From assembly GCA_025350965.1 (NCBI GenBank), contig JANXWV010000129.1, positions 1 to 64,000 on the forward strand: a stretch of DNA of 64,000 nucleotides, in the 5' to 3' direction. The notes under the pieces are model-generated. The model was not told where the DNA came from. It was given only the letters and a program-made list of their open reading frames with translations, and did not search any database. A program made the position numbers and the translations under genes. The DNA is from Rhizobacter sp. GTDB taxonomy: Bacteria > Pseudomonadota > Gammaproteobacteria > Burkholderiales > Burkholderiaceae_C. This document shows, piece by piece, positions 22,043 through 44,260 of the stretch. The first letter of the stretch is position 1. Each line of letters starts with the position of its first letter.

Positions 22043-23383
22043 ATGAACACCTCGCGGGCCCCCGAGTGTGCCCCCCCAGCGGCTGATTTCCACTGCGACG
22101 TGCTCGTCGTCGGCGGCGGGCCGGCGGGCTCCACGATCAGCGCCTTGCTCGCCGAGCGCGGGCGCGACGTGGTCATGATGGAGAAGGCGCACCACCCGCG
22201 TTTCCACATCGGCGAGTCGCTGTTGCCGGCCAACGTGGCGCTGTTCGACAAGCTCGGCGTGCGCGATCAGGTCGAGCGCATCGGCATGCCGAAGTACGGC
22301 GTCGAATTCGTCTCGCCCGACCACCCGAAACCCGCATCGGTCGAGTTCGCCGAGGCCTGGGACAAGACCATGCCCTATGCCTGGCAGGTCCGTCGCGCCG
22401 ACCTCGACGACATCCTGTTCCGCAACGCCGCGCGCAAGGGCGCGCGCACCCTCGAAGGCTACCGCGTGCGCGACGTGGCATTCGACGATGCCGGTGCCAC
22501 CGTGAACGTGGAACTCGACGACGGCGCGAAGCAGACCTGGCGCACCCGTTTTCTCGTCGATGCCTCGGGGCGCGACACGCTGCTGGCCAATCACTTCAAG
22601 TGCAAGCAGAAGAACGAGCGGCACAACAGCTCGGCGATCTACGGCCACTTCACGGGCGCGACAAGGCTTGAAGGGAAGATGGAAGGCAACATCACCATCT
22701 TCTGGTTCGCGCACGGCTGGTTCTGGTTCATTCCGCTGGCCGACGGCACGACGAGCGTCGGCGCGGTGTGCTGGCCCTACTACCTGAAGTCGCGCGGCGG
22801 CAAGCCGATGGCCGAGTTCTTTCACGACACCATCGCGTCGTGCAAGGGCCTGGCGGAGCGGCTCGAGGGCGCCACGCTCGTGGCCGACGAGGTTCATGCC
22901 ACCGGCAACTACTCGTACAGCAGCGCCATCAGCAGCGGCGAGCGCTTCCTGATGCTCGGCGACGCGTATGCGTTCATCGACCCGGTGTTCTCGAGCGGTG
23001 TGTTCCTCGCGATGCAGGGCGGCTTCGAAGCGATGCCGGTGGTCGAGGCCACGCTCGACATGCCGTCCAGGGCGGCGGCGCTGCGCAAGCACTTCGATGC
23101 ACGCGTGCGCTTCGGGCCACGCGAGTTTTCGTGGTTCATCTACCGCGTCACGAACCCGACCATGCGCGAGCTGTTCATGGAGCCGCAGAACCCCATGCGC
23201 GTCAAGGAGGCACTGCTCTCGCTGCTGGCCGGCGACATCTACGGCAAGACGCCGATCTGGCGCGCCATCCGCATCATGAAGGCGGTGTACTACCTGGTCT
23301 CGATCGGCAAGCTCGGGCGCACCTGGCGCGCGTGGCTGCGGCGGCGCGTGAACATCCGCGACGTCGGGGCGCTGAACTCGTGA
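22043..23383 (+). CDS. FAD-dependent halogenase-like oxidoreductase of the pigment cluster
   Basis: A 446-residue flavoprotein of the tryptophan-halogenase-like family. GGGPAGS at residues 24-30 is the FAD dinucleotide motif; W226-F-W228-F-I230-P231 gives the WxWxIP motif linked to flavin-dependent halogenases; MLGDAYAFIDPVFSSGV is the second FAD block. In Xanthomonas such a gene lies in the pigment cluster, whose product is a brominated aryl polyene. It probably halogenates, or otherwise oxidises, the aryl head group. The XanB2-type gene overlaps its stop (GTGA). A pure monooxygenase role is not excluded. Confidence 0.82.
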   Translation: MNTSRAPECAPPAADFHCDVLVVGGGPAGSTISALLAERGRDVVMMEKAHHPRFHIGESLLPANVALFDKLGVRDQVERIGMPKYGVEFVSPDHPKPASVEFAEAWDKTMPYAWQVRRADLDDILFRNAARKGARTLEGYRVRDVAFDDAGATVNVELDDGAKQTWRTRFLVDASGRDTLLANHFKCKQKNERHNSSAIYGHFTGATRLEGKMEGNITIFWFAHGWFWFIPLADGTTSVGAVCWPYYLKSRGGKPMAEFFHDTIASCKGLAERLEGATLVADEVHATGNYSYSSAISSGERFLMLGDAYAFIDPVFSSGVFLAMQGGFEAMPVVEATLDMPSRAAALRKHFDARVRFGPREFSWFIYRVTNPTMRELFMEPQNPMRVKEALLSLLAGDIYGKTPIWRAIRIMKAVYYLVSIGKLGRTWRAWLRRRVNIRDVGALNS

Positions 23384-24390
23384 CCGTTGCCGTGCGGCCG
23401 CGGGTTGCCGCCGCTCCCACGCTCGGCTTTCACCGGCTGCGTGCCGACATGGCGCACGCGCTGCTCTACCCGCTGGGCGCTCGCACACTGAGCGCCGGCG
23501 ATGCCAGCCTTCCACTGCTGCACCCGGGCGGGCCCGTGGCCGACCTATGGTGCGCATCTGCCTTGGCCCCGGTGCAGCAGCGCGGCCCCGTGCGCTATGC
23601 CGCCAGCGGCCAGTGGCTGCATGGCAGCGTGGAGATCAATGACCGGTGCATCGAAGGCGGCCTTCAGCCTGCGGCGCAACAAGCGTACGCCGCGCTGTTT
23701 GACGTTCTCGCCGACAGCACGTGCCCGCACCTGCTTCGCCTGTGGAACTATGTTCCCGACATCAACGTTGACGATGGCCTGGGTGAGCGCTACCGACAGT
23801 TCAACGCCGGCCGTCAGCGAGCCTTCATCGACGCTCGGTGCAGCGCCTTCTCCGGGGCGCCCTCAGCGTGTGCGCTAGGCAGCTCGGCGGGCGGGCTCCG
23901 CGTGCAGTTTCTTGCGGGCAGCAACGCGCCACTGGCCATCGAGAACCCGCTGCAAGTCAGTGCGTACCACTATCCCATCGACTACGGCCCGACCAGCCCC
24001 ACATTCTCGCGCGCGGCCGTGGCGGACGCAGGCGGGGGTCGGCATGTTCTGTTCATCTCCGGCACCGCCAGCATCGTCGGCCATGCCAGCGTGCATGTGG
24101 GCAACGTGCGGCGCCAGACGCAGCAGACGCTCGACCACATCGACGCGCTCTGCACCGAAGCCGCACGCCGCAGCGGCGCTGTGTTCGATGCCGGTGATCT
24201 GGCCTGCACCATCTACGTCCGCCACGCCGAAGACCTGCCTGTAGTGCGCGACCAATTCGAGCGCCACATGGGGCCGGCAAGCAGGGCCGCTTGCGGGGCG
24301 TTGTACGTGCGCGCCGACGTGTGCCGTGCCGAGCTGCTGGTCGAGATCGAAGCCCATGGTTTCGCGCCTTCCGCCGGGCTCGCCGCATGA
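23380..24390 (+). CDS. xanB2: XanB2-type chorismatase (3-hydroxybenzoate synthase)
   Basis: A 336-residue protein of the FkbO/Hyg5/XanB2 chorismatase family with a YjgF-like fold. The C-terminal block VRADVCRAELLVEIEAHG matches the conserved end of XanB2, and VLFISGTASIVGH and NVRRQTQQTLDHIDAL are further family blocks. XanB2 cleaves chorismate to 3- and 4-hydroxybenzoate; 3-hydroxybenzoate is the xanthomonadin starter. The GTG start overlaps the stop of the preceding gene. The C-terminal half is clearest; the N-terminal third is more divergent. Confidence 0.85.
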   Translation: MTVAVRPRVAAAPTLGFHRLRADMAHALLYPLGARTLSAGDASLPLLHPGGPVADLWCASALAPVQQRGPVRYAASGQWLHGSVEINDRCIEGGLQPAAQQAYAALFDVLADSTCPHLLRLWNYVPDINVDDGLGERYRQFNAGRQRAFIDARCSAFSGAPSACALGSSAGGLRVQFLAGSNAPLAIENPLQVSAYHYPIDYGPTSPTFSRAAVADAGGGRHVLFISGTASIVGHASVHVGNVRRQTQQTLDHIDALCTEAARRSGAVFDAGDLACTIYVRHAEDLPVVRDQFERHMGPASRAACGALYVRADVCRAELLVEIEAHGFAPSAGLAA

Positions 24391-24466
24391 GGCGCCCGGC
24401 ACTGCCGCCATGGGCCGGCCCGCGCACTGTTGCACGAAGCCGTGCCGGGCGCCGATTGAGGTGCGC

Positions 24467-25198
24467 TTGACGTCGCTGAAGCGCCTGGCGCAATGCGTGC
24501 TGTTCTACGTGCTGCTCATCCACCTCGGGGCCATGTCTCTGACCTGGAACATGGTGGCGCTGCTGCTGTACCCGCTGCTGACGCGCGAGCACGGCACCGT
24601 GGTCGGCCGCGCGGCGGTGTCGTCGGTCTACCGGGGCTTCTGGACCTGCGCCCAGTGGCTCGGCCTGATGCGCATCGACTCGACCGCGCTCGACGTGCTC
24701 GAGCGTGATGCCGGCCTCATCATTGCCGCCAACCACCCGAGCATGCTCGATGCCCTGCTCATCATCGCCCGGGTGCCGCGCGGCATCTGCATCATGCGGT
24801 CGAGCCTGATGCGCAACCCCTTCCTCGGAGCGGCCTGCCGGCTGGCGCGCTACATCCGCAACGAGCCGCCGCGCGGCATGATCCGCAGCGCCGTGGCCAA
24901 CCTGAAGGCGGGCGGGCAACTGGTGCTGTTCCCTGAAGGCACGCGCACCATGGCGGCGCCGGTCAACCCGTTTCGCCCTGGCATCACGCTGATGGCACAG
25001 ATGGCGCAGGTGCCGATCCAGACCGTCATCATCGAGACCGATTCGCCCTACCTCGGAAAGGGCTGGCCAATCTGGCGAGCGCCGGCGTTTCCGGTCGTCT
25101 TCCGGGCCCGGCTCGGTGAGCGCTTCGCCCCCGAAGCCGACCACCAAGGCTTGTTGAAGCGCCTGGAAGCCTACTTCGCGGGGGAACTGTCGCGATGA
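24467..25198 (+). CDS. Lysophospholipid/1-acyl-glycerol-3-phosphate-type acyltransferase
   Basis: About 243 residues of the PlsC superfamily. A hydrophobic N-terminus precedes NHPSMLDALLI (NHxxxxD catalytic block), RYIRNEPPRG and LVLFPEGTRT (substrate-binding motif). Together with the next gene it corresponds to the fused acyltransferase-glycosyltransferase seen in some APE clusters. It may place the polyene acyl chain on a lipid or sugar carrier. The TTG at 24467 fits the family start; an in-frame ATG at 24410 would add 19 residues that look non-coding. The next gene overlaps it by 4 bases. Confidence 0.82.
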   Translation: MTSLKRLAQCVLFYVLLIHLGAMSLTWNMVALLLYPLLTREHGTVVGRAAVSSVYRGFWTCAQWLGLMRIDSTALDVLERDAGLIIAANHPSMLDALLIIARVPRGICIMRSSLMRNPFLGAACRLARYIRNEPPRGMIRSAVANLKAGGQLVLFPEGTRTMAAPVNPFRPGITLMAQMAQVPIQTVIIETDSPYLGKGWPIWRAPAFPVVFRARLGERFAPEADHQGLLKRLEAYFAGELSR

Positions 25199-26058
25199 AC
25201 GATGCAGCCGCGATCGAGAGCATTGGCGCGAGCCCGAACGCGAGCCTGAACGCGAACCCGACCCCGAACCCGAACCCGAACGTGAGCCCGAGCACGACGC
25301 ACCTCGTGCTGATCCCCAGCTTCGACACCGGCGCTACCGTGTACGCCACCGTGCGCGCCGCGCGTGCGCAATGGTCGCCGGTGTGGGTGGTGGTCGACGG
25401 CAGCACCGACGGCACGACCCGGGGCCTGCTTGAGATGGCCGCTGCCGACTCGGGCGTGACCGTCTTCGTGCTGCCGCACAACAGTGGCAAGGGTGCTGCC
25501 GTGCTGCACGGCCTGCAGGCCGCGTGCGATGCCGGGTTCACGCATGCGCTGACGATGGACGCCGACGGCCAGCACCCGGCCGACCTGATCCCGACCTTCA
25601 TGCACGCTTCGCTCGCACGTGCCGATTCGATGGTGCTGGGCCGCCCGGTATTCGACGCCTCGGCGCCGCTGTTGCGCGTGCGCGGCCGGCGTGTGTCGAA
25701 CTGGTGGACGAACCTGGAAACGCTGGGTGCCGGCATCGACGATTCGCTTTACGGCTTTCGCGTCTACCCGATCGCGGCATTGATCGGCGTGATGCACGGC
25801 CAGCCGTGGATGCGCCGCTTCGATTTCGACACCGAAGCCGTCGTGCGCCTCGCGTGGCGCGGCGTCACGCCCATCAACCTGGGTGCGCCGGTGAAGTACC
25901 TGACGGCCGAGGAGGGCGGCGTCTCGCACTTCCGCTACGGGCGCGACAACGTGCTGCTGACCTGGATGCACCTTCGCCTGATGGCCGAGTTCGTGCTGCG
26001 CCTGCCGTGGCTCGTGTGGCGCAGGCTCGCAGGCAAGCCGCCGTTCAGGCGCGCTTGA
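25195..26058 (+). CDS. Family 2 glycosyltransferase with repeat-expanded N-terminus
   Basis: A 287-residue GT-A glycosyltransferase. VVVDGSTDGTTRGLL and LTMDADGQHPADLI give the nucleotide-sugar and DxD (DAD) motifs; RRFDFDTEAVVRLAWRG holds the distal acidic region. It ends in a hydrophobic amphipathic segment. Residues about 12-33 are a low-complexity run (ASPNASLNANPTPNPNPNVS) encoded by hexanucleotide repeats before the true domain begins at LVLIPSFDTG. In the pigment cluster it likely glycosylates the polyene or its lipid anchor. Confidence 0.86.
   Translation: MNDAAAIESIGASPNASLNANPTPNPNPNVSPSTTHLVLIPSFDTGATVYATVRAARAQWSPVWVVVDGSTDGTTRGLLEMAAADSGVTVFVLPHNSGKGAAVLHGLQAACDAGFTHALTMDADGQHPADLIPTFMHASLARADSMVLGRPVFDASAPLLRVRGRRVSNWWTNLETLGAGIDDSLYGFRVYPIAALIGVMHGQPWMRRFDFDTEAVVRLAWRGVTPINLGAPVKYLTAEEGGVSHFRYGRDNVLLTWMHLRLMAEFVLRLPWLVWRRLAGKPPFRRA
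25227..25291 (+). repeat. Degenerate hexanucleotide repeat in the glycosyltransferase gene
   Basis: About ten copies of a 6-bp unit near AACCCG/AACGCG, in frame, encoding alternating Asn with Pro, Ala, Ser or Leu. Unit length is a multiple of three, so copy changes keep the frame. Confidence 0.75.
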
Positions 26059-26119
26059 CCAGCGCGTCCTCGTCTCGCGGATGATGCACCCCGACGCAAC
26101 GCACACCGGCAAGCCACCC

Positions 26120-27085
26120 ATGACCTCACCCTCGCAACGCCTTGATCGCGCACTGGAACAAGTGCAGCAACAGCGGCGCCGCTTGCTCGGGGCGCTCGGC
26201 GCCCCGGCATTGCTGGCGCTGCCCGGTTGCGCCTCTCCCTGGCCCGCCGTCTTCGAGCCGGTCGATGCGAGCGGCCGCGCCGCCGCCGCCGCGCTACTGG
26301 CTGCGAGCGCACAGGCCCATGGCATCGGCGCGCTGCGCCAACTGCAAGACCTGAGCATCAGCTACTCGGGTGAGTGGCGTGGGCTCATCAATCGCTTGCA
26401 ACCGGCGCTGGTGGACGAGCGCTTTCGCCAGGCCTCGCAAGAGCGCCTGCTGCCCCGCGAGGGCCTGGTTGCGCAGGCGCACCGGGGCACGGGCGGCGCG
26501 AAGCAGGTGGTGCGGCGCAGCCCTGCCGCAACCCCGGGCGACGTGCGCGTCTGGTTCAACGGCGAAGAGGCGCTGGCCACCGAGCCGCGCGCCGCTGCAG
26601 CGCTGGTGGTCGATGGCTACAGCCTGTTCCTGCTCGGGCCGATGTGGCTGGCCGACCGCGCGGTGCCGGTGGCGCTGGGCGGCACCGAGACCGTGGACGG
26701 GCACGCGTGCGACATCATCTACCTGCGGCTGGCGCCCGGTCTCGGCCTGGCAGGCAGCGACCGCGTCGCGCTGTTCATCGACCGCGACGACAAGCTGATG
26801 CGCCGCGTGCGCTTCACGCTCGATGGCCTGGGCTCGACCATCGGTGCCGTCGCGGAAGTGGAGACGTTCGACTTCATCGACCTGCACGGCGTGCGCTGGC
26901 CGACGCGCTTCTTCGAGCGCATCGTGAAGCCGTTTCGTCTGGCGGTGCACGACTGGCGCCTGACCGGGCTGGACGTGAACCGGGGCATGACCACGGCCGA
27001 GTTGCTCGGCCCGTCGTTCACCGGCGCCGCCGTGGCGCCCGCCGCTGCGTTGGCGGCTTCGGCCGTCAGATCATCCCGCCGTTGA
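26120..27085 (+). CDS. Putative lipoprotein of the pigment cluster
   Basis: About 321 residues. The N-terminus holds RRRLLGALGAPALLALPGC, a positively charged then hydrophobic stretch ending in a lipobox, with a Tat-like arginine run. The body has no family I recognise; beta-type segments such as YSLFLLGPMWLADR and VRWPTRFFERIVKPF suggest a lipid-binding periplasmic fold. In-frame ATGs at 26081 and 26084 are alternative starts. It is the last gene of the rightward arm and overlaps the convergent ketoreductase by 20 bases. A role in handling the pigment at the envelope is a guess from context. Confidence 0.65.
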   Translation: MTSPSQRLDRALEQVQQQRRRLLGALGAPALLALPGCASPWPAVFEPVDASGRAAAAALLAASAQAHGIGALRQLQDLSISYSGEWRGLINRLQPALVDERFRQASQERLLPREGLVAQAHRGTGGAKQVVRRSPAATPGDVRVWFNGEEALATEPRAAAALVVDGYSLFLLGPMWLADRAVPVALGGTETVDGHACDIIYLRLAPGLGLAGSDRVALFIDRDDKLMRRVRFTLDGLGSTIGAVAEVETFDFIDLHGVRWPTRFFERIVKPFRLAVHDWRLTGLDVNRGMTTAELLGPSFTGAAVAPAAALAASAVRSSRR

Positions 27086-27803
27086 TCGAGATCACCTGCC
27101 CGCTGATGTAGCCGGCATCAGCCGACGCGAGGAACGCGACCAGTGCCGCAACCTCGTCGGCGCGGCCTGCACGTTTCATCGGCACCATGCGCTCGATCAG
27201 CGCGGCGTCGAAGCCCTCGGCCATGCCGGCATCGATCAAGCCCGGCGCGACCGCGTTGACCGTGATGCCCCGGCTGGCCAACTCCAGGGCGAGTGACTTG
27301 GTCGCGCTGTTCAGTGCGCCCTTCGCCGCGGCGTAGTTCACCTGCCCGCGGTTGCCGGTGATCGCGGCGACCGAACTGATGTTGATGATGCGGCCCCAGC
27401 GCGTGCGGATCATCGGCATCGTCAACGGCTGCGTGACGTTGAAGAAGCCGTTCAGCGACACGTCGATCACGTCGTGCCACTGCGCTTCACGCAGCGCCGG
27501 GAACGCGGCGTCGGCATGCACGCCGGCGTTGTTGACGAGCACCTGGATCGGCCCATCGGCCAGCAGCGTGGCCATGGCGGCGTGGGTCGCTTCGCGGTCG
27601 GTGATGTCGAACGCGACAGCCATGGCATGACCGCCTTGTGCGCTGATCTCGCCCGCCAGCGCCGTGGCTGCATCGAGCCGGCTGTTCGCATGCACGATCA
27701 CGTGCAGGCCGTCGGCCGCGAGCCGAAGCGCAATCGCGCGGCCGAGGCCGCCGCTGGCGCCGGTGACGAGCGCGCGCTTGGGCGGATTCGGTGTGTCGTT
27801 CAT
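27066..27803 (-). CDS. FabG-type 3-ketoacyl-ACP reductase of the pigment cluster
   Basis: A 245-residue short-chain dehydrogenase. VTGASGGLGRA is the NADPH motif, NNAGV the structural motif, and Ser in ISSVA with Tyr/Lys in YAAAK the catalytic set. The C-terminal SINGGMI is typical of FabG. It should reduce the 3-keto group in each polyene extension round (ApeQ role). It starts 4 bases after the dehydratase fusion and is the last gene of the leftward operon. Confidence 0.92.
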   Translation of the reverse strand: MNDTPNPPKRALVTGASGGLGRAIALRLAADGLHVIVHANSRLDAATALAGEISAQGGHAMAVAFDITDREATHAAMATLLADGPIQVLVNNAGVHADAAFPALREAQWHDVIDVSLNGFFNVTQPLTMPMIRTRWGRIINISSVAAITGNRGQVNYAAAKGALNSATKSLALELASRGITVNAVAPGLIDAGMAEGFDAALIERMVPMKRAGRADEVAALVAFLASADAGYISGQVISINGGMI

Positions 27804-27807
27804 GCGT

Positions 27808-28878
27808 TCAGGCGGCAAGCGCCGTGTTGAGCACCACCGCCGCGCGGCCCTCGGCGACCGGCCGGCCCTGGTGGGTGATGCGGAAAGCGTAGAGGATCTG
27901 CCGTGCATCGCCGGCCTGACGCGTGGCTTCGATGTGCAACTCGTCGGGCTCGCCGCGCGCGTCGGCATCGCCCTGCAGCGGCAGGTCGTCGAGCCGCAGC
28001 ACCTGCAGTTGCACGCTGCGCGCGCTCGCCAGGTAGCCCGGCGTGGCCGAGGTGCCGGCGGCTTGGCCGATGAGTGCGCCATGCAGCGCCATGGCTTGCG
28101 CGGCGTACTCGATGGCCACCGGCGCCAGCAGGCCGCTGGCGCTGCGCAGGGGGTGCGCTGCGTCACGGTGGTTGGTGGCGCGGCATGTGATGCGCTGCGG
28201 GTCCCACGCGCACAGGCGGTCGAGCAGGCACATGGCACCGCTGTGCGGAATGAGTGCGGCGATGGCGTCGTGGCCCAGGGTCTGCGGCATGGTGAGGTGG
28301 CGCAATGAAGTGCTGTTTGGGGCGCCGTTCGTGGTGCCGTTCTTGGCGCTGTTCATCGCGCCGTTCACGACCATGAGCACATGGTTCTCGTGCAGTGCAC
28401 CGCCCAGGTCGAAGTATGCGGTGCCTACCCGCTCGTAGCCGTGCCGCGCATAGAACGCAATGGCCGCGCGGTTCTGCGCATTGACCGTGAGCCACAACCC
28501 GCCACCGCTTCGCGCCACCGCCAGTGCGGCGGCATGGTCAAGCAAGCGCGCGCCGATGCCTTGGCGTGCGAAGTGCGCCTGCACATAGAGTGTGGTCAGT
28601 TCGGTGGTCGATGCGGGATGCACCGGGCATGCATTCCCGAAGGTCACGACAGCACAGGCGACGAGGTGGTCTGCCAGCTCGGCCACGAGCACGCGGGCGG
28701 CATCGCTCGCCACCAAAGCCTCGAACTTCTCGGGCGTGAACTCGCCGAGCGCGTAGCGGGCGACGGTGTCGGAAATGCCGTCGGTCGCATAGGTGTGAAG
28801 CCACACCTGCATGCCCAGCGCTGCCAGGCGTGCAGCGTCGCGCGGCTCGGCGTTGCGAACCCTCGGCTCAGGCTTCAT
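27808..28878 (-). CDS. GNAT acetyltransferase fused to ApeP-like 3-hydroxyacyl dehydratase
   Basis: A single 356-residue frame with two domains. Residues 1-170 are a GNAT N-acetyltransferase with the acetyl-CoA loop ARQGIGARLL at about 104-113 and NRAAIAFYARHGYERVG. Residues about 171-195 are an Asn/Thr/Ser/Ala repeat linker. Residues 197-356 are a hotdog dehydratase starting MPQTLGHDAIAALIPHSGAM, with catalytic His212 and PVAIEYAAQAMALHG. The dehydratase should form the polyene double bonds. The ATG at 28290 could start a separate dehydratase. The first start overlaps the upstream gene by 11 bases. Confidence 0.82.
   Translation of the reverse strand: MKPEPRVRNAEPRDAARLAALGMQVWLHTYATDGISDTVARYALGEFTPEKFEALVASDAARVLVAELADHLVACAVVTFGNACPVHPASTTELTTLYVQAHFARQGIGARLLDHAAALAVARSGGGLWLTVNAQNRAAIAFYARHGYERVGTAYFDLGGALHENHVLMVVNGAMNSAKNGTTNGAPNSTSLRHLTMPQTLGHDAIAALIPHSGAMCLLDRLCAWDPQRITCRATNHRDAAHPLRSASGLLAPVAIEYAAQAMALHGALIGQAAGTSATPGYLASARSVQLQVLRLDDLPLQGDADARGEPDELHIEATRQAGDARQILYAFRITHQGRPVAEGRAAVVLNTALAA
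28319..28370 (-). repeat. Low-complexity repeat in the GNAT-dehydratase linker
   Basis: Imperfect 12- to 18-bp units built around GGCGCCGTTC, in frame, encode the linker NGAMNSAKNGTTNGAPNS. There are about four degenerate copies. Confidence 0.65.
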
Positions 28879-29698
28879 GCAATACGGGTTGCAATGCGAG
28901 CCACACGCCTGCGGACAGCGCAAGCGCAAGCTTGAGCGTGGGGTTGGGGGCCACCGCACCGCGCGCCAGTGCTTGCAGCAAGGGCAGTGCCGCCGCTGCC
29001 GGGATGGCCACGCGCAGGGCTTCCAGCGGGCTGTTGTCGCACGGTGTCGGCAAGGCCCTGTCGGTGGGCGCCGTCAGACCGATCACCAGCGCTGCCAGCG
29101 ATGCGGCAGAGGCCGTGGGCGCAAGCACCAGGGCCACGCCGAAGTGGTCGGGTAGCTTGCGCTTGGCGTGCAGCGGCTCGGGGTAGGGCGAGTCGCTGCA
29201 CACCAGCAGCACCGGTGCCTGCGTGTGCAGCACCAGGCTCGCGGCTTCCAGCAGGCCGGCGGCGAAGCTGGCGTCGAACGCGCACAGGCTGGTCGATGGC
29301 GCGCGGCTCGCCACGGCGATGTGCCAGCAGCCAGCTGCGGCGTTGTGCACCGAGTTCGTGAAGCGCGTGGGCGACACCATCGGCGCTGTCGTGGCCAGGG
29401 TCTCGCACAGCGCATGGCAGTGCGTGCCTTCGCCGCTGGACGAACTGAACACGGTGGCCAGGTGTTGCGGGTCGAGCGCGGCCTGCGCCACCGCTTCATC
29501 GGCCACCGCCAGCGCGAGCTTGATGGCCGCACCGGCACGCCGGCGCTCGGCTGGCGGCAAGCGTGCTGGCGGTGGCAGCAGCGTGGGGCTGGCGAGGTAC
29601 GACTGCGCGCCGGTCAGCATGTCTTGCGATGCCGCCCAGGACGCAAGGCCGGGCCCGAGCAAACCCACGCCCTGGATGAACACGCGCAGGCCCGTCAT
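28868..29698 (-). CDS. Ketosynthase partner subunit lacking the catalytic cysteine (ApeC/chain-length-factor-like)
   Basis: A 276-residue ketosynthase-like protein, about 120 shorter than a full ketosynthase. FTNSVHNAAAGCWHIAVAS aligns with the nucleophile region but lacks the TACSS motif. The region between ATVFSSSSGEG and LCAFDASFAAGLLEA resembles the N-terminal-half chain-length-factor proteins that pair with the APE ketosynthase (ApeO-ApeC). Its ATG overlaps the stop of the active ketosynthase, consistent with a heterodimer made in equal amounts. Confidence 0.82.
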   Translation of the reverse strand: MTGLRVFIQGVGLLGPGLASWAASQDMLTGAQSYLASPTLLPPPARLPPAERRRAGAAIKLALAVADEAVAQAALDPQHLATVFSSSSGEGTHCHALCETLATTAPMVSPTRFTNSVHNAAAGCWHIAVASRAPSTSLCAFDASFAAGLLEAASLVLHTQAPVLLVCSDSPYPEPLHAKRKLPDHFGVALVLAPTASAASLAALVIGLTAPTDRALPTPCDNSPLEALRVAIPAAAALPLLQALARGAVAPNPTLKLALALSAGVWLALQPVLHEA

Positions 29699-31772: not shown

Positions 31773-31815
31773 GGGGGCAGGGCGAGGGCCGATTTTCCCA
31801 TACGCTCCGCGCCGC

Positions 31816-34260
31816 TCAGGGCGGTCGGCGCCCAATGAATGCGGCCGACAACACCAGGCACAGCAGAATGCCCGGCGCCACCACCTGGCCGATCGCGAAC
31901 AGCGCCGGAATGCTCGACGCGGCGAGCAAGCCGAACGACACCACGGCGGTCAGGTTCGCAAGCGCCAGCGAGGCGAGCGTGTCGGCGTCCAGCGCGCGCG
32001 CTGGCCCCGGCGCCAGCGCGCGCGCTGGCCCTGACGCCAGCGCCTGCTGCGCTTCCTGCGACTCCCGCAGCTTGTCGAAGAACAGCGCGTAGTTCGACCC
32101 GATGGCAACTGTCAGCAACAAGCCGACCAGGTGCAGGATGCCCAGGCCCACGCCGCTCGCCGTCAGCGCAGCGAGCACGATGAGCACCGCTGCGGCCACC
32201 GGCTGCACGATGCGCCACAGCCGCGCTGCGGACCGCAGGTGCCACGCCAGCAGCGCGCACACGGCCAGCGCGCCGAGCAGGGCCTGCCACTGGGCTTCGT
32301 TCAGGTAGCGCGCATACAGCGCATCGAGCTCGTTCTTGATGTTGACGACCTGAGCGCCTGGCAGGCCCGCCAGGGCGTTTCGCAGCGTGGCAGGGTCAAT
32401 GCCCTGCGCGCCGGTCTGCAGGCTCAGCAAAGCCCGCCATGGCCGGCTGGCGCTGCCTGGCACGAGCTGCGCGTCGAGTGCGCTGGCCAGCGGCGTGCCT
32501 TGCAGCGCGGCGCGGTCGAGCAGCGGCAACTGGCGCGCGGCCTGAACATCTGCAATGAACGGGGCCAAGCGTGACGCGGGCAGCGGGCCGTCGACGGTGG
32601 CTTCGGTCAGCCGCGCGGCCAGTGTGGCGGCATCGGGCAGCGCGGCGCGGCGCTGCGCCTGCACGGCGCGGCTGGGCAGCAGGCGGGCCGGTGACTCGTA
32701 GCCGAGCAGGGCGCCGCTCGCGACCAGGCTGTCGAGGCGCAGGCCCGCCGCTTCCGCGGCTGCCAGCACGGCCGCTTCGCTGGGCGCGGACACGGCGACC
32801 AGCGTGCCGCCGTCGGTCGCGCCGATGTCGCCGCGCAGGGCTGCATCCACCGCCATCGTGCGCTCGCTCATCGGGCTCAGTGAACTCAGGTTGCCGCGCC
32901 ATGCCGAGGGCAGCAGCGCGCAGGCCAACGCCGCCGCAACGGCCACCCCCGCCAGTGCCCAGCGCAGGCGCGGCAGCGCGGCAGTGAGGGCGCCCACCGC
33001 ACGGCCCAGGCGCTGGCGCACGCCGGTGCCGGGGGCGCCATCGGGGGCGAGCGTGGGGAACACGCAGCGTGTGGTCAACGCGGCGGCTGTGAGCCCGGCC
33101 ATCGAGAACAAGCCGAGTTGCGCCAGGCCCGGGAAGCCCGAAAACAGCAGCGCCGCAAACCCGCACAGCGAGGTCCACAGGCCGAGCCGAACCGTCGGCC
33201 AGTTCTCGGTCGCCCACGCCTTCGCGCCCGAGCCCGGCGCGGCGCCGCGCCGGGGCCGCGCCTGGATCAGGTAATACACGGCGTAGTCCACCGCCTCGCC
33301 GATCAGCGTGGTGCCGAAGGCGAGCGTGATGCCGTGAACGTTGCCGAACACCAGGCTCACGAGCGCGATGCCAGCGAGCACGCCGCTGGCCACCGGCAAC
33401 GATGCGATGGCCAGCGTGCGGATGGACCCGCCGAACGCCGCGAGCATCAGCACGACGATGGCCGCGCCGCCGAACAAGGCCAGGCGCTCGACCTCGGCCT
33501 TGATCTGCGCGCGCGACGCCACCGCGAAGGTGGGCGTGCCGGAGACGACCAGCGTCAGCGCGTCGGCGCCTGAACCTGCGAGCGCGGTGAAGCTGGTTCG
33601 CACTTGTTGCAGCGCGCGCTCCTGTGCGTCCAGGTCAGAACCCTCCGCATGCGTGGTGGCGACCAGCACCGCACGCGCTGCCGTGCGCGACACCCACACG
33701 CCGGCTTCGCTGCGCGGTGATTGCGCCGGCAGCATGGCCTCGGCCATGCGCACCGTCTCGCCGGTCGGGTCGCGCCAGATCAGCGGCTTGATCGCCACGC
33801 CTGCCGGAGTGCCGAGCAGCGCAGTCGTGTCGTCGATGGCGGCGCGCAAGCCGGCGACCGTGAAGCGCTCGGCATCGACTGCCGGGCTCAGCACATAGCG
33901 GTGTTCGAGCAGGAAGCGGCCGGTGGCTTCGTATTGGGTGTTGTCGCCGTTGTGAACCGCGTCGAAGAGGCCACTGCCGCGCAGCGCTCGGGCCAGCTTC
34001 ATGGAAGCCTCGCCGCGCGTGGCCGCGCTGCCGCCTTCGATGCCGATCAACACCAGCTTCGAGGCCACGCCGGTGCGCAACTGGTCGAGCAGCACCGCCT
34101 GTTCGGGCGTGGGCGCCGAGGGCAGGAAGGCCGAGAGATCGGCGACGAAGGTGGTGCGCGCGGCCACTGCACCGCAGGCGATCACGCACAGCAGCCACAG
34201 CGCCAGCGCATGCCGGCGTGCGAACGTGATCGTTCGCTGAATGCGCTCGGTGCGCGCCAT
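31816..34260 (-). CDS. MMPL/RND-family exporter of the pigment cluster (ApeM-like)
   Basis: An 814-residue transporter with two repeats of one membrane helix, a periplasmic domain and a five-helix bundle, the MMPL/HAE3 plan. GTTLIGEAVDYAVYYLIQA and AIGSNYALFFDKLRESQ are the equivalent helix-4 regions of the two halves, the first with the proton-relay Asp. It should move the finished lipid or glycolipid polyene out of the inner membrane. Near the C-terminus (ALASGPARALAPGPARALDA) it carries a duplicated octapeptide. Its ATG overlaps the LolA-like stop by one base. Confidence 0.88.
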   Translation of the reverse strand: MARTERIQRTITFARRHALALWLLCVIACGAVAARTTFVADLSAFLPSAPTPEQAVLLDQLRTGVASKLVLIGIEGGSAATRGEASMKLARALRGSGLFDAVHNGDNTQYEATGRFLLEHRYVLSPAVDAERFTVAGLRAAIDDTTALLGTPAGVAIKPLIWRDPTGETVRMAEAMLPAQSPRSEAGVWVSRTAARAVLVATTHAEGSDLDAQERALQQVRTSFTALAGSGADALTLVVSGTPTFAVASRAQIKAEVERLALFGGAAIVVLMLAAFGGSIRTLAIASLPVASGVLAGIALVSLVFGNVHGITLAFGTTLIGEAVDYAVYYLIQARPRRGAAPGSGAKAWATENWPTVRLGLWTSLCGFAALLFSGFPGLAQLGLFSMAGLTAAALTTRCVFPTLAPDGAPGTGVRQRLGRAVGALTAALPRLRWALAGVAVAAALACALLPSAWRGNLSSLSPMSERTMAVDAALRGDIGATDGGTLVAVSAPSEAAVLAAAEAAGLRLDSLVASGALLGYESPARLLPSRAVQAQRRAALPDAATLAARLTEATVDGPLPASRLAPFIADVQAARQLPLLDRAALQGTPLASALDAQLVPGSASRPWRALLSLQTGAQGIDPATLRNALAGLPGAQVVNIKNELDALYARYLNEAQWQALLGALAVCALLAWHLRSAARLWRIVQPVAAAVLIVLAALTASGVGLGILHLVGLLLTVAIGSNYALFFDKLRESQEAQQALASGPARALAPGPARALDADTLASLALANLTAVVSFGLLAASSIPALFAIGQVVAPGILLCLVLSAAFIGRRPP
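31991..32038 (-). repeat. Two-copy 24-bp tandem repeat in the exporter gene
   Basis: Two 24-bp units (AGCGCGCGCGCTGGCCC then CGGCGCC or TGACGCC), differing at two positions, encode GPARALA twice in a cytoplasmic loop between the last membrane segments. Confidence 0.8.
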
Positions 34261-34901
34261 CAGCCCGGTGCGCTCGCCGGCCGGGCCGCCGCAGCCACCG
34301 GCTCGATCGTCATGACCGAGCGGTCGCCGTCGGCCAGCGCCACCGTCACCTCGCGCACCACGCCTTGCGTGCCGGCCACGCGCACCGAAGCCACCTGGCC
34401 ACGCAGGCGCACGTCGAGTGGCGTCAGCTCGAGCGCCCAGCGCGGCGCGGTGCCCGACACACGGGCGCTGAAGTGGCGCTCCAGCGCATCGCGGTTGCCG
34501 GTGAGCGTGCCGCGCACGGCTTCGACGATGACCGCGGCCTCGGGCACCGCGTCGAGCGCCACGGTGCGCGTGCGCGCGCCCTGGCTCAGGGTCACGGTGT
34601 TGCCCACGACGGCGAGCTTCTCCTGGCGCGGCTTCAGGGTTTCGCGCACGAAGGTGTCGGGCGCTGCGAATGACAGGCGGCCGGTCGATTCGAGCGTGCG
34701 ATCGAGTACGGCCACAGAACGCTTCTCGGTGAAGGTGGCTTCACCGGATTTCACCTGCGCGAGCAACTGCGTCAGCTGGGCCAGCGTGAACGGCTCGGCT
34801 TGCGCGCGTGCCGGCTGTGCCCACGTCGGTGCGACCACGAGCGTGAACACGAGCACGAGCGCGGCCGCCGCATCCAGGGCGCGGTGGCGCTTACTCGGCA
34901 T
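34260..34901 (-). CDS. LolA-like periplasmic protein of the pigment cluster (ApeL-like)
   Basis: A 213-residue protein with a signal peptide (DAAAALVLVFTLVVAPTWA) and the LolA-fold blocks LTQLLAQVKSGEATFTEKRS and GRLSFAAPDTFVRETLKP. Residual similarity is to outer-membrane lipoprotein carriers that serve APE clusters. It probably shields the hydrophobic polyene lipid across the periplasm after the MMPL exporter. It overlaps the upstream acyltransferase by 11 bases. Confidence 0.82.
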   Translation of the reverse strand: MPSKRHRALDAAAALVLVFTLVVAPTWAQPARAQAEPFTLAQLTQLLAQVKSGEATFTEKRSVAVLDRTLESTGRLSFAAPDTFVRETLKPRQEKLAVVGNTVTLSQGARTRTVALDAVPEAAVIVEAVRGTLTGNRDALERHFSARVSGTAPRWALELTPLDVRLRGQVASVRVAGTQGVVREVTVALADGDRSVMTIEPVAAAARPASAPG

Positions 34902-35934
34902 GTGCGGCCTCGGCGGCAGCAGCGGTTTGGGTGGCGTCCGCATCGGGGGCCCAGAAGTCGAAGAAGTTGAACCAGTTGTACGGCGACTCGATGCACAAGG
35001 CCTCGATCAACATCACGTAGCGTTGCATCGCCGCGAGGATGCGCGCTTCACTCTCGCCGGCTGCGACCGGTTCACGGAAGTCGGCCAGCTCGACGAAGCG
35101 CAGCTCGTAACGCTTGCCGCCGAGGTACAGCCCGGCCATGAACACGACCTGGCGGCGCAGCAGCGCCGCAAGCCTGAACGGCCCGTCCGAGAAGCGCGCC
35201 GGCTCGCCGAGGAAGGGCAGCCGCTGCGTGTGCGAGTGAGAGTTGGCGTGTGAGTTCGAGCGCGAGCGCTCGGCCTGGCCGGGCAGCGTGCGGTCGGCCA
35301 GCAGCCCGGCAATGCCGCCGCTGTCGAGCCAGCGGCGCAGCGACAACATGGCCCCGGCGCGGCCAAGCGCGATGGTGTGCAGCTGCGCCTGCGGTGCGAT
35401 GGCCGCGAGCGTGCGGGTGATGAGGCGCGCGTTGTCCTCGAACATGAGCATTGCGATCTTCATGCCGCGCTCCTGGCCGATGGCGCGCAAGGCCTCGAAG
35501 CTGCCCAGATGCGCGCCGACCAGCATCACGCCGTCGCCCTTCGCGATGGCCGCATCAAGCACGTCGAGGCCGGTCGAGCGCAGGTCGAATTCGCGCAGCC
35601 GGTCCTGCAGGAAATAGACGCGGTCGAGGATGGTCGCGGCGAAATGGTGGATGTGGCGGTACACGTCGCGCAGGGCTGCAGGCCGCTGCTGCGCGCGCGT
35701 CAGGTAGGCACGCGATGCGCGCCGCGCCTTGCCATTGGCGAACAGGAAGTACAGCGCGATCGGGTGGAGCACGGCCCGCGCAGCCGGCCGGCCGGCGCTG
35801 ACCGCGATCCAGCGCATCACGCGAAGCACCCACAGGCTGCCGCGCTCGCGCTGCTCGGTCCAGGCGGCGCGTTGGCGGCTGCCCTTTTGGGTGGGCTCGC
35901 GGCTGCGCTCGTCGCTGTCGAGCGGGGTGCTCAT
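34891..35934 (-). CDS. LpxL/HtrB-like acyltransferase of the pigment cluster
   Basis: A 347-residue member of the lipid A late-acyltransferase family. GVMLVGAHLGSFEALRAIG holds the HxxxxE-type catalytic block (HLGSFE), and RTLPG with FRLAALLRRQVVFMAGLY gives later conserved regions. It may transfer a fatty acid or the aryl polyene chain to the lipid anchor. An insert RSRSNSHANSHSHTQR at about residues 224-239 is low complexity. It overlaps the dehydratase gene upstream by 4 bases. Confidence 0.85.
   Translation of the reverse strand: MSTPLDSDERSREPTQKGSRQRAAWTEQRERGSLWVLRVMRWIAVSAGRPAARAVLHPIALYFLFANGKARRASRAYLTRAQQRPAALRDVYRHIHHFAATILDRVYFLQDRLREFDLRSTGLDVLDAAIAKGDGVMLVGAHLGSFEALRAIGQERGMKIAMLMFEDNARLITRTLAAIAPQAQLHTIALGRAGAMLSLRRWLDSGGIAGLLADRTLPGQAERSRSNSHANSHSHTQRLPFLGEPARFSDGPFRLAALLRRQVVFMAGLYLGGKRYELRFVELADFREPVAAGESEARILAAMQRYVMLIEALCIESPYNWFNFFDFWAPDADATQTAAAAEAAHAE
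35229..35264 (-). repeat. Short Ser/His/Asn-coding repeat in the acyltransferase gene
   Basis: Alternating 6-bp units near AACTCG, CACTCG and CACACG encode NSHANSHSHT in frame in a surface loop. Confidence 0.6.
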
Positions 35935-36245
35935 GGGGCGCCCGCCAACTCGAACTGCCCCGATGCGGCCAACCGTTCGCCTTCACGCACCTCGAAGCGC
36001 AGGCTGTGCGCCGACTCGGTCAGGCGGATCACGAGGGCCGCGCCCGGCCGCACCGGCGCCAGGAACTTGGCCGCACCGATGCGCGGTGCCGGACCGATCA
36101 AGGCGGCGAGTTCCGGGTGCGCGAGGGCCGCCTCCAGCACCTGCGACAGCAGGGCCACGCCGGGCAGCAACGGTTGCCCCGGGAAGTGCCCGGCAAAGGC
36201 CGGGTGGTCGGGCGCGACCTGCCACGCAGAGCTGTGCGTCGTCAT
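35931..36245 (-). CDS. Small hotdog 3-hydroxyacyl-ACP dehydratase (ApeI-like)
   Basis: A 104-residue single hotdog domain with the FabZ/FabA signature HPAFAGHFPGQPLLPGVALL, in which His is catalytic. It lacks a separate acidic-residue helix that can be placed with confidence. With the ApeP-like domain of the fusion protein, it should dehydrate 3-hydroxyacyl-ACP intermediates. It overlaps both neighbours by 4 bases. Confidence 0.85.
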   Translation of the reverse strand: MTTHSSAWQVAPDHPAFAGHFPGQPLLPGVALLSQVLEAALAHPELAALIGPAPRIGAAKFLAPVRPGAALVIRLTESAHSLRFEVREGERLAASGQFELAGAP

Positions 36246-37768
36246 GGCAGGCGCTGGCGCGGCGCTGCGAGCTGCTGCGGTGCCCAGGCATCGAGCACGC
36301 CGGCCGGCAGCTTGCCCGTGGCCTCGCGCGGCAACGCGGGCACGTCGATCAGGCGGCGCGGCAGGAACGCGGGGTCGATGCGCTCGCGCAGCGCACTGCG
36401 CAGACAGGCATGCGACACACCCGGCGCCACCACGAAGGCGACGAGCCGCACCACGCCATCGGCGTGCCCGTACTCCAGTCCATCGGCGTGCCCGTGCTCC
36501 AGTCCGGCGGCGTGACCGTGCTCCAGTCCGGCGGCGTGACCGTGCAAGGCGGCATGGGCCTGGCCCCGCACAACGCCGTCGGTGTGGCCCTGCGCACCGG
36601 GTTGCGGTGGCAGCCAGAACGCACCGTCGCGCACGCCCTCGATGGCGTTGAGGTGGAAGTTGAGGTGGCTGAGCGAACTGCGCTTGCCGGCCACGTTGAC
36701 GAGGTCGTTGGAACGGCCGAGCAGGCGAAAGGTTTGTGCGTCCAGCACTTCCAGCACGTCGGCCAGCGGCACGGGCTGCGGCACGTGGCCACCCTGTACG
36801 ACCGAGTGCTCGCCGTCGCCGCTGAGCCGCAGGCCGTCGTACACCTGCCATGCGTCGCCGTGCGTGGTGCGGCGAGACGCCACCTGCCCGGCCTCGGTGC
36901 AGCCGTAGATCTCCATCAGCGGCGCGCCGAACGCAGCCTCGGCCCGTGCCGCCAGTTGCGGCGACAAGGGGGCGGTGGCGCTGACGATCAGGTCCACCGG
37001 GGGCAGTGCGAAGCCGGCGTCGACCAGCGTCTTCAGGTGCAAGGGCGTGGTGACGAGCAGGCGCGGGCGGGGCGCGCGCGCCAGTGCGGCGGCAATGTCG
37101 GCGGGGTAGAACGGCCGTTCGGTGTCGAACGCCGCACCGCCGACCAGTGCCACCAGCACGCTCGACTCGAAACCGTACATGTGCTGCGCCGGCACGGTTG
37201 CCACGATCGTGCAGCCCTTGATCGATTCGCGCCCCATCTGCTGCGCCAGGCGGGCCGCGCCGCTGCGGGCGTTGCGCACCAGCAGGCCCCAGGCCTTGGG
37301 GTGTGGCACGGGCGCGCCGGTCGAGCCCGAGGTGAGCACCTGTGCGGCCAGCGCGTCGGCCGCGAACTGCGGGCAGGGCAGCGTTCCCGCACCGGCATCG
37401 CCTGTGGCACCTGCATCATGGGCCGCCACCGAATAGCGCGGGTGTCGCAGCACCGGCAGGTCGACTGCCGCCGCGCCGTCGTCGCACAAGGCATAGGCAC
37501 CGGGGAACAGCGCCGCGAGCCGCGCCACGGTGTCGGTGGTGTGGTTCGGCGGCAGCAGGTTGTTCTGGCCGCGCTGCATCGCCGCGCCCAGCCCCACGGC
37601 GAAGCGGTAGCGGTCGTGGGTGATGTTGAGCATCGGCCCACTGGCGGGCAGCAGGGCGGCCAGCGTCCGCACGTCGGCCAGGTACTGCGCACGGGTGATC
37701 GGCTGCCCCTGGTGCCAGGCCAGCGGCGCCGCGAGGTCGGCGCCTTGCATCAGCGGCACGGCGTTCAT
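36242..37768 (-). CDS. AMP-ligase activating the aryl starter (ApeH-like)
   Basis: A 508-residue ANL-family adenylating enzyme. VLTSGSTGAPVPHPK is the P-loop (A3), MEIYGCTEAGQVASR is A5, and GRSNDLVNVAGKRSS with ATGKLP near the end are A8 and the A10 Lys. It should adenylate the hydroxybenzoate starter and load it on the ACP. A region of about 32 residues near 425 is four copies of an octapeptide close to GHADGLEY/EHGHAAGL, inserted in the small C-terminal domain. Confidence 0.88.
   Translation of the reverse strand: MNAVPLMQGADLAAPLAWHQGQPITRAQYLADVRTLAALLPASGPMLNITHDRYRFAVGLGAAMQRGQNNLLPPNHTTDTVARLAALFPGAYALCDDGAAAVDLPVLRHPRYSVAAHDAGATGDAGAGTLPCPQFAADALAAQVLTSGSTGAPVPHPKAWGLLVRNARSGAARLAQQMGRESIKGCTIVATVPAQHMYGFESSVLVALVGGAAFDTERPFYPADIAAALARAPRPRLLVTTPLHLKTLVDAGFALPPVDLIVSATAPLSPQLAARAEAAFGAPLMEIYGCTEAGQVASRRTTHGDAWQVYDGLRLSGDGEHSVVQGGHVPQPVPLADVLEVLDAQTFRLLGRSNDLVNVAGKRSSLSHLNFHLNAIEGVRDGAFWLPPQPGAQGHTDGVVRGQAHAALHGHAAGLEHGHAAGLEHGHADGLEYGHADGVVRLVAFVVAPGVSHACLRSALRERIDPAFLPRRLIDVPALPREATGKLPAGVLDAWAPQQLAAPRQRLP
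36456..36551 (-). repeat. Four-copy 24-bp tandem repeat in the AMP-ligase gene
   Basis: Four consecutive 24-bp units at 36456, 36480, 36504 and 36528. Adjacent units are nearly identical: the first two differ at one base, the third differs from the second at three bases, and the last diverges at its end. They encode GHADGLEY, GHADGLEH and GHAAGLEH-type octapeptides. Confidence 0.9.
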
Positions 37769-37769
37769 G

Positions 37770-38447
37770 TCATGCGGTCGAACCGGGTTTCACGGGCGTT
37801 CGTCCGGCGGGCGCCTCGTGCCCGGCGTGCGAGTAGGCGCGTATCGCGTCGGCCAGGCTGGTGCGCTCGAACTCGGGGTGCAGGCGGTAGCGCAGCAGGT
37901 ATTCGCCGACGAACATCAGCGCCACCGCCAGCGGCGTGAGCAGGTTGGCGAACAGCGCCCAGGCGTCGAACGGCGCCAAAGCGAAGAGCGCGACCGAGAG
38001 CGCGGCCATGCCGATGAAGTAGAGCGTCCACGCCAGCGTGGCCTTGCGCGTGTAGGCCGCCATGTCGGCCGTGAACACGCGGTGCACCCGCTCGGCGAGC
38101 GTCGTGATGAACGGCTTGTGGCCGGCGCGCAGCGTGTTCCCGAACAGCAGCGCGAGAAACAGGTTGATGCCCACGTGCTGCGCAACGTACAGCGCCTGGG
38201 CTGAAACGTGCACGCCCAGCAGCGCCTGTGCGCACAGGCCGAGCACCACGGCCGCCGCGCCCAGCGCCAGCCCGCGCTGGCCACTTCGCCACGCGCCGGC
38301 CGCGACCACCGCGAGCATCGGGCTGAGCACGCCCACCACGTTCCAGGGCGAGCCGTTCGCGGACGTCATGAGCCAGTGGGTGCCGAGCACGTAGGCCACG
38401 CCGGCCACTGCGACACCCGCCACGCGGGCCACGGCGCGGCTGTTCAC
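37770..38447 (-). CDS. COG4648-like membrane protein of the pigment cluster (ApeG-like)
   Basis: A 225-residue membrane protein with about six hydrophobic helices. HVGINLFLALLFGNTLRAGHKPFITTLAERVHR (shown here in parts: HVGINLFLALLFGNTL and KPFITTLAERVHR) and TLYFIGMAALSVALF match the pattern of the small membrane proteins of APE clusters. The function is unknown. The GTG at 38447, 5 bases after the ACP stop, is preferred; reading further upstream overlaps the ACP gene. Confidence 0.8.
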   Translation of the reverse strand: MNSRAVARVAGVAVAGVAYVLGTHWLMTSANGSPWNVVGVLSPMLAVVAAGAWRSGQRGLALGAAAVVLGLCAQALLGVHVSAQALYVAQHVGINLFLALLFGNTLRAGHKPFITTLAERVHRVFTADMAAYTRKATLAWTLYFIGMAALSVALFALAPFDAWALFANLLTPLAVALMFVGEYLLRYRLHPEFERTSLADAIRAYSHAGHEAPAGRTPVKPGSTA

Positions 38448-38451
38448 TGCA

Positions 38452-38721
38452 TCAGCCGACGCGGTGCGTCGCGATGTGGTCCGCCAGGCTCGCAAGCGAC
38501 GTGAAAATCTTGACGTTGTCTTCGTCATCCGAGCGCAACTGGAAGCCGTAGCGCTGCGAAACGACGAGCGCCACTTCGAGGATGTCGATCGAGTCGAGGC
38601 CCAGACCTTCGCCGTACAGCGGGGCCTGCGGGTCGATGCTGTCGGGCGCGGTATCGAGGTTCAGCGCTTCGACGAGAAGCGCAGCTACCTCGCGTTGCAG
38701 GTCGGTGTGGGCAAAGGTCAT
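38452..38721 (-). CDS. Acyl carrier protein of the pigment cluster
   Basis: An 89-residue ACP with the phosphopantetheine site Ser in GLGLDSIDILEVAL. DAPLYGEGLG-type loop residues (PQAPLYGEGLG) and a C-terminal helix are as expected. It holds the aryl starter and growing polyene. It is the first gene of the leftward operon, and no second ACP gene is found in the locus. The ATG at 38721 follows GAAT-type sequence with no strong ribosome-binding site. Confidence 0.92.
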   Translation of the reverse strand: MTFAHTDLQREVAALLVEALNLDTAPDSIDPQAPLYGEGLGLDSIDILEVALVVSQRYGFQLRSDDEDNVKIFTSLASLADHIATHRVG

Positions 38722-44159: not shown

Positions 44160-44260
44160 CACCGCCCGAACGGGAGAGATCTCGAGTCACCGCCCGAACG
44201 GGAGAGATCTTGAGTCACCGCCCGAACGGTAGAGATCTTGAGTCACCGCCCGAACGGTGA
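44160..44260. repeat. 28-bp tandem repeat at the 3' end of the rhomboid gene
   Basis: Three full 28-bp units start at 44160, 44188 and 44216, and a partial fourth at 44244 lies inside the rhomboid coding end. Each unit holds CACCGCCCGAACGG, the codons for the rhomboid C-terminus PFGR and its stop on the minus strand, plus AGATCT. They differ at one or two bases. Confidence 0.92.

Follow-up and report, generated by a model that had tools for sequence, protein, structure and literature searches.

A probable arcuflavin/xanthomonadin-type aryl polyene gene cluster in Rhizobacter, with a GNAT-dehydratase fusion and without the methyltransferase gene

Gene content and layout of the locus

The 64,000-nucleotide stretch of DNA analysed here (the window; positions 1 to 64,000 of contig JANXWV010000129.1) comes from a draft Rhizobacter assembly of 4.3 Mb in 155 contigs, estimated to be 87.7% complete, and thus from the Burkholderiales, as an earlier note on its letters had supposed. 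At 22043-38721, on a contig of 122,616 bases, it carries a gene cluster that is best explained as a whole as an aryl polyene (APE) cluster of the arcuflavin/xanthomonadin type, a reading to which we assign a probability of about 0.86. The cluster belongs to an already described kind, and its product is most likely a yellow pigment; its unusual points are a GNAT domain fused to one of its dehydratases and the missing methyltransferase gene. The genes form two convergent operons, as previously proposed, whose ends share 20 nt (27066-27085).

The plus-strand operon begins with a gene for a flavin-dependent halogenase-like protein (22043..23383; counterpart of ArcA of Azoarcus; Pfam Trp_halogenase, E 5.6e-28; Lys84 and WFWFIP from residue 226), followed by a chorismatase of the FkbO/Hyg5/XanB2 family (23386..24390, its start lying anywhere from 23386 to 23449; ArcB counterpart; PF21168, E 5.8e-35), a PlsC-like acyltransferase (24326..25198, start uncertain; ArcD counterpart; PF01553, E 2e-17) and a GT2 glycosyltransferase (25195..26058; ArcE counterpart; PF00535, E 6.5e-16). 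It ends with an optional cluster gene for a putative lipoprotein (26081..27085) that has no Pfam match; its AlphaFold model (pLDDT 74) points to a LolA/LolB-like fold, with Foldseek matches to LolA/LolB/LppX proteins at E down to 3.6e-7 and modest TM-scores. Homologues of this protein occur in four of 80 related loci (the best 80 of at least 491 found with the ketosynthase as query, some of them on short contigs) and in L176 and L179, and in the four layouts read (L039, L070, L176 and L179) the gene adjoins that of the ketoreductase.

The minus-strand operon opens with the acyl carrier protein (ACP; 38452..38721; ArcV; PF00550, E 3.8e-8), which is 85-92% identical in L031, L032 and L174, and with a protein of six hydrophobic segments that holds the conserved ApeG/ArcU position (37770..38528) and that we take to be the COG4648-type membrane protein. 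There follow an AMP-forming ligase, by homology a 3-hydroxybenzoate:ACP ligase (36242..37768; ArcT/XanA2 counterpart; PF00501, E 1.8e-17), an ApeI-type, FabA-like hotdog dehydratase (35931..36245; ArcS; PF07977, E 2.4e-5), a lipid-A-type acyltransferase (34891..35934; ArcR; PF03279, E 1.8e-5) and a LolA-like periplasmic carrier (34260..34943; ArcQ/ApeL; PF19574 or LolA_3, E 3.5e-18). The remainder comprises an MMPL/RND-type exporter (31816..34260; ArcP counterpart), recognised by homology to related-locus proteins and showing eight hydrophobic segments in a simple scan, a polysaccharide deacetylase (30897..31835, start uncertain; ArcN counterpart; PF01522, E 8.8e-30), the ketosynthase (29695..30918, likely start 30900; ApeO/ArcK type; PF02801/PF00109), a half-size ketosynthase-like chain-length factor (28868..29704; ApeC/ArcJ type; PF13723, E 1.7e-28), a fusion of an N-terminal GNAT domain (PF00583, E 4.5e-15) with a C-terminal ApeP-type hotdog dehydratase (27808..28878; 6qsr_B first in Foldseek) and the ketoreductase, a short-chain reductase (27066..27818; ApeQ/ArcH type; PF00106, E 8e-54). 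Every gene on the earlier note's list was recovered in its place, by Pfam scans, through homologues in the case of the exporter and through the predicted fold in the case of the ApeP-type dehydratase; that list had passed over the GNAT fusion, the second LolA-like gene (that of the lipoprotein), the presence of two different acyltransferases and the missing methyltransferase and MipA genes.

Assignment to the aryl polyene family

The assignment rests above all on the ketosynthase pair and the two dehydratases. The best solved relatives of the ketosynthase are 7f28_B and 6qsp_A, and 7f28_A and 6qsp_B are the only solved relatives of its half-size partner at E 0.001; we take both entries to be APE ketosynthase pairs. 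For the ApeI-type dehydratase, 6qsr_A ranks second among solved relatives, behind an uncharacterised protein. The ApeP-type dehydratase gave a sub-threshold match to the Pfam ApeP-like family (E 0.0046) and, in a phmmer search against solved chains, a single spurious match that was set aside; the fold search decided, the predicted structure matching 6qsr_B of the Xenorhabdus doucetiae ApeI:P complex first (Foldseek, E 1.7e-8), and His212 and Glu257, invariant across 30 aligned dehydratases, are both retained. Together with these, the ligase, ACP, ketoreductase, LolA-like protein and exporter lie in the same cluster, the exporter being assigned through its homologues, three of the four tested reaching the MMPL family (E 1e-12 to 7e-12) and that of Rhizobacter Root404 failing to do so. 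Searches against solved chains returned no relative of the AMP-ligase at E 1e-5 and nothing for the exporter at E 0.1. Gains and losses aside, 11 of the 13 related loci whose layouts were compared keep the order of the genes, the other two (L076 and L095) being rearranged, and the arrangement is therefore not due to chance; in the ketosynthase tree, the window falls inside a Rhizobacter clade with support 99. The ketosynthase pair, dehydratases, ligase, ACP and the layout of relatives thus uphold the xanthomonadin-like aryl polyene that the earlier note had read into the locus.

By analogy with the experimentally studied clusters of Azoarcus (PMC3949708), Lysobacter (PMC3691225) and E. coli (PMC8253772), from which we infer the chemical steps in this organism, the chorismatase would convert chorismate to 3-hydroxybenzoate, the AMP-ligase would load it onto the ACP, and the ketosynthase and its half-size partner would extend the chain with malonyl units. 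Reduction by the ketoreductase and dehydration by the ApeI:ApeP-type pair would then give a conjugated polyene acid. The acyltransferases, glycosyltransferase and deacetylase would probably attach this acid to a membrane lipid, which may be a glycosylated lipid anchor, and the MMPL exporter and LolA-like carriers would move the product to the outer membrane. The glycosyltransferase and deacetylase had been regarded previously as additions to the pathway; they prove to be usual parts of it, being counterparts of arcE and arcN and present in 49 and 48 of the 80 related loci, respectively.

Several observations weigh against this picture. Even at a threshold of E 5 the exporter matches no Pfam family, and the COG4648-like protein reaches no Pfam family above cut-off. 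The chorismatase has Ala at the CH-II/CH-Hyg5 marker Gly-164 (Nat-hyg5 numbering) and scores below the cut-off of the TIGR04444 subfamily (189.8 vs 325 bits). The host genome is a draft, so that a gene counted as missing could sit in a gap; the precedent of arcuflavin (see below) tells us that a halogenase gene is no guarantee of a halogen in the product; and among the literature matches listed there was no report of a pigment product or cluster of this kind from Rhizobacter.

The halogenase-like protein and the halogenation of the pigment

Does the presence of a halogenase gene imply a halogenated pigment? The WxWxIP motif is intact, as claimed earlier, and is accompanied by the lysine (Lys84); among homologues scoring above 150 bits in two sets of loci, the lysine is present in 47 of the 47 that cover it (L081 stops short of it) and WxWxIP in all 48. 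Most solved relatives of the protein, the best one included, are halogenases. It scores 98 bits against a Pfam Trp_halogenase cut-off of 21, and 187 against the 900 required by the NCBIfam CmlS equivalog. A search of 369 genomes of the class at E 1e-60 finds the gene in 35, its own genome counted.

Pigments of relatives give diverging answers. Clusters of Xanthomonas contain a halogenase and its pigments bear 0-2 Br, and Lysobacter, described in the same source as devoid of the halogenase gene, makes a pigment without Br (PMC3691225). Steroidobacter cummioxidans, for which a 14-gene xanthomonadin cluster is reported, forms a pigment with two Br, whose formula is given as C27H28Br2O3 in the running text and as C27H28Br2O2 in the table of the source (PMC5979037). 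Arcuflavin of Azoarcus, by contrast, is non-brominated although its cluster contains the arcA halogenase gene (PMC3949708). Given a halide, the enzyme is probably able to brominate or chlorinate the ring or its neighbour, and halide supply could account for the differences in bromination among relatives; the odds that the natural pigment is halogenated are about even.

A tentative alternative, to which we give rather less than even odds, is that the protein acts as some other flavin-dependent oxidase or hydroxylase of the pathway and that the pigment is never halogenated. It would fit the arcuflavin precedent (PMC3949708), the fact that the second-best NCBIfam model is the QhpG flavin monooxygenase (169 bits vs 187 for CmlS, both below cut-off) and the frequent separation of halogenase and chorismatase, five of 48 full-length loci having the former only and ten the latter only. 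However, the retention of the lysine and of WxWxIP in all covered homologues and the halogenases among the best solved relatives speak for true halogenation, as do the brominated pigments of Xanthomonas with halogenases in its clusters, the non-brominated one of Lysobacter (PMC3691225) and the brominated one of Steroidobacter cummioxidans, whose 14-gene cluster may hold a halogenase (PMC5979037).

The raw association of halogenase and chorismatase over the 48 full-length loci (Fisher p 0.027) might have indicated co-inheritance, an idea that found no support in tree-independent pairs, which were too few to reach significance; the same holds, again with too few pairs, for the methyltransferase against the halogenase, chorismatase or lipoprotein and for MipA against the halogenase. 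Clusters with both halogenase and chorismatase let one ask when an APE halogenase truly halogenates, a question that Azoarcus answers in one way and Xanthomonas and Steroidobacter in the other. About 2.5 kb past the ACP gene lies a 2Fe-2S/FAD/NAD reductase (41215-42252), which might conceivably serve as a flavin-reducing partner of the halogenase.

The chorismatase and the starter unit

The earlier note's XanB2-type chorismatase is confirmed as a member of the FkbO/Hyg5-type family by its PF21168 match. It carries Gly240, Cys327 and Glu334 (Hyg5 numbering), the first two of which are Ala in FkbO, and among its relatives the Gly is kept in 41 of the 41 aligned, the Cys and Glu in all 38 that reach that far. 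The matching residues of Nat-hyg5, a 3-hydroxybenzoate former, are Gly-231, Cys-318 and the catalytic Glu-325 (PMC7170507). On these residues, compared with those of Hyg5 and FkbO, the enzyme would be of the 3-hydroxybenzoate-forming type. ArcB produced 3-hydroxybenzoate from chorismate, 4-hydroxybenzoate being formed without enzyme too, and ArcT was active on 3-hydroxybenzoate (PMC3949708). Because of the active-site residues and the activities of ArcB and ArcT, 3-hydroxybenzoate is the most likely starter, in line with the priming proposed earlier.

The chorismatase is only 57-61% identical to its Rhizobacter counterparts, compared with mostly 75-84% for the neighbouring halogenase, PlsC and GT2 proteins, which hinted at replacement by a foreign gene. 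Replacement was rejected, since in the chorismatase tree the protein groups with seven other Rhizobacter rows (support 96), on a branch of 0.50 vs 0.08-0.25; faster divergence is the better account. In length that branch exceeds those of the Rhizobacter counterparts at least twofold, although the active-site residues are retained.

Could the same enzyme serve a second purpose, feeding 4-hydroxybenzoate to ubiquinone in place of UbiC, as proposed for Xanthomonas XanB2? The thought arises from the lack of a UbiC (PF04345) match in all ten Rhizobacter genomes and from the finding of both hydroxybenzoates in extracts of ArcB-expressing E. coli (PMC3949708), yet it is doubtful. UbiC goes undetected in 147 of 200 family genomes anyway; it is present in 5 of 29 genomes with chorismatase vs 48 of 171 without, so that the expected rarity of UbiC beside a chorismatase was rejected as not significant (Fisher p 0.26; the overlap was counted across two listings, taken as the same 200 genomes); a Rhizobacter genome of 100% completeness (G100) has neither; and in the ArcB assays 4-hydroxybenzoate arose without enzyme as well (PMC3949708). 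The wide UbiC gap leaves the usual source of 4-hydroxybenzoate for ubiquinone uncertain in much of the family, or else PF04345 misses divergent copies. G100 has two APE clusters, L174 and L179, each with a halogenase-like gene and MipA and without a chorismatase, and that genome has no PF21168 or PF04345 match, which leaves the supply of their aromatic starter to be explained.

Missing methyltransferase and MipA genes

In L032, a locus of the same gene order, an S-adenosylmethionine-dependent methyltransferase gene lies between those of the deacetylase and the ketosynthase, and a MipA gene between those of the chorismatase and PlsC; here, the deacetylase and ketosynthase genes abut and the MipA gene is missing from its place. 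No homologue of the methyltransferase was found in the window's own 87.7%-complete genome, and seven of ten genomes of the genus have a match (six strong, one weak). Likewise, no MipA was found in the draft, and an almost identical query did find matches in other Rhizobacter loci. At its site, the methyltransferase is present in 43 and absent in 16 of the 59 rows scored, which represent 56 distinct loci (L185, L186 and L187 duplicate L030, L033 and L034); since it is thus absent from 15 of the 55 other distinct loci, it does not strictly define the subtype. Its presence changes at least ten times on a quick ketosynthase tree built without bootstrap, such counts being unable to separate gain from loss. 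Three members of the Rhizobacter clade (12 rows, nine different clusters, support 99) lack it, namely the window, L174 and L175, and these do not form a group of their own.

Because the methyltransferase of the cluster is missing, the phenol of the head group is probably free, unless a gene hidden in a gap or an unrelated enzyme methylates it. Single tailoring genes (those of the methyltransferase, MipA, chorismatase, halogenase and lipoprotein) are repeatedly present or absent at their fixed positions, even within one genus, which provides natural comparisons of the effect of each gene on the pigment.

The GNAT-dehydratase fusion

The open reading frame at 27808-28878 begins with a GNAT domain, which an Asn-rich linker made up of 12-bp repeats (28321-28367) joins to the dehydratase. 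In a survey of 399 family genomes (up to five candidates scored per genome, E 1e-30), its own genome was the only one with a match over both halves. Four other candidates (G626, G688, G623 and G668) proved to be dehydratases without GNAT, the chain-length factor being recognised just before in three of them, and two (G101 and G122) GNAT proteins without dehydratase. The 80 related loci have no GNAT domain at the cluster, and the projected gap from chain-length factor to dehydratase, ~580 nt here, lies between -42 and +187 nt in 54 of the 55 loci measured (L062 was discarded, its value of -9355 arising from matches in different places).

Free-standing relatives of the GNAT domain occur in the genus and family at ~40-54% identity; two in the genus sit in different neighbourhoods, from which no source site could be found. 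The nearest solved relative of the domain is the PAI 1 protein, and the best curated model, a polyamine acetyltransferase, stays below cut-off. The GNAT half of the predicted fusion structure is of low confidence and therefore allows no inference on domain packing. Polyene chemistry offers no obvious task for the domain, which is therefore read as captured: most likely, a free-standing GNAT gene was captured in frame, with a dehydratase that would still work and an acetyltransferase that would act on an amine.

An assembly artefact or frame accident is conceivable, the fusion being confined to one genome of 399, a draft in 155 contigs, with a 12-bp repeat at the junction. It is nonetheless unlikely, given a single open frame with no stops across both parts, a GNAT start codon set within the final codons of the gene for the chain-length factor, in the manner of coupled operons, the location on a 122-kb contig and the homologous free-standing GNATs (~40-54%) of the genus and family, which make the domain native to such genomes. 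Should it be confirmed, the GNAT-ApeP fusion would be a domain arrangement uncommon for a type II polyketide pathway. That the GNAT domain, held at the ApeI:ApeP pair, O-acetylates the free 3-hydroxyl or a neighbouring group in place of the methyltransferase cap, yielding an O-acetylated, possibly halogenated APE, strikes us as a very long shot; we know of no report of an O-acetylated aryl polyene pigment, and no literature search was aimed at one.

Surroundings and repeats

The flanks seem unrelated to the cluster, with ABC-transporter ATPases upstream and a periplasmic binding protein and a TctC protein downstream. Five of the seven tandem arrays of the window fall inside the cluster (~3.0 per 10 kb), among them a 24-bp repeat in the exporter gene (31983-32043), an 18/6-bp repeat near the start of the glycosyltransferase gene (25229-25291) and, in the AMP-ligase gene, an in-frame 24-bp repeat (36456-36545, 3.8 copies) encoding an HGHAAGLE-type peptide repeat. 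That the cluster is unusually repeat-rich was rejected, as 14 related loci span 0.5-6.6 arrays per 10 kb, three of them above 3.0. Elsewhere in the window, a 28-bp repeat array (44160-44257; 3.5 copies at 97%) lies ~730 bases before a tRNA-Leu gene.

Comparison with known systems

With the pig/xan cluster of Xanthomonas, the locus shares, in gene content, the chorismatase, ligase, ACP, ketosynthase and chain-length factor and the halogenase gene; it differs in that a brominated product is established there and not here. The APE Ec and APE Xd systems employ a 4-hydroxyphenyl-type starter and are not known to have a chorismatase or a halogenase. With these systems (PDB 6qsr and 6qsp) the locus has in common the ketosynthase and chain-length factor, the ApeI:ApeP pair, the ligase, the LolA-like carrier and the exporter (PMC8253772). 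Unlike it, the E. coli cluster has two ACPs, a third ketosynthase (ApeR), a putative thioesterase and the methyltransferase ApeB, and it is for ApeG that the name COG4648 is given (PMC8253772).

The arc cluster of Azoarcus sp. BH72, in which the annotation names a halogenase (arcA), a chorismatase (arcB), a deacetylase (arcN) and a glycosyltransferase (arcE), has counterparts here of arcA, arcB, arcD, arcE, arcH-K, arcN and arcP-V, by annotation and order alone, and Variovorax, another member of the Burkholderiales, is already listed among the carriers (PMC3949708). The two gene blocks, however, are unlinked in Azoarcus and adjacent and convergent here; the arcM methyltransferase and arcC MipA genes are absent and a lipoprotein gene is extra; GNAT is fused to the arcI-type dehydratase; and no dialkylresorcinol genes were seen in the cluster. 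The last point bears on a conceivable hybrid pigment in which a dialkylresorcinol would be the ester partner of the polyene acid, as it is in arcuflavin: Azoarcus, Dechloromonas, Variovorax and Sideroxydans have both cluster types together (PMC3949708), but no dialkylresorcinol gene was recognised among those of the 17-kb cluster, the rest of the genome not having been searched for them, and a hybrid is quite improbable here.

Other close systems are loci of Rhizobacter and Sphaerotilaceae. The six compared in this respect (L031, L032, L176, L174, L051 and L039) differ from the window in that five have the methyltransferase, all six have MipA and none has the GNAT domain. All six share its gene order, and the proteins of four of them (L031, L032, L174 and L176) are 56-92% identical to those of the window.

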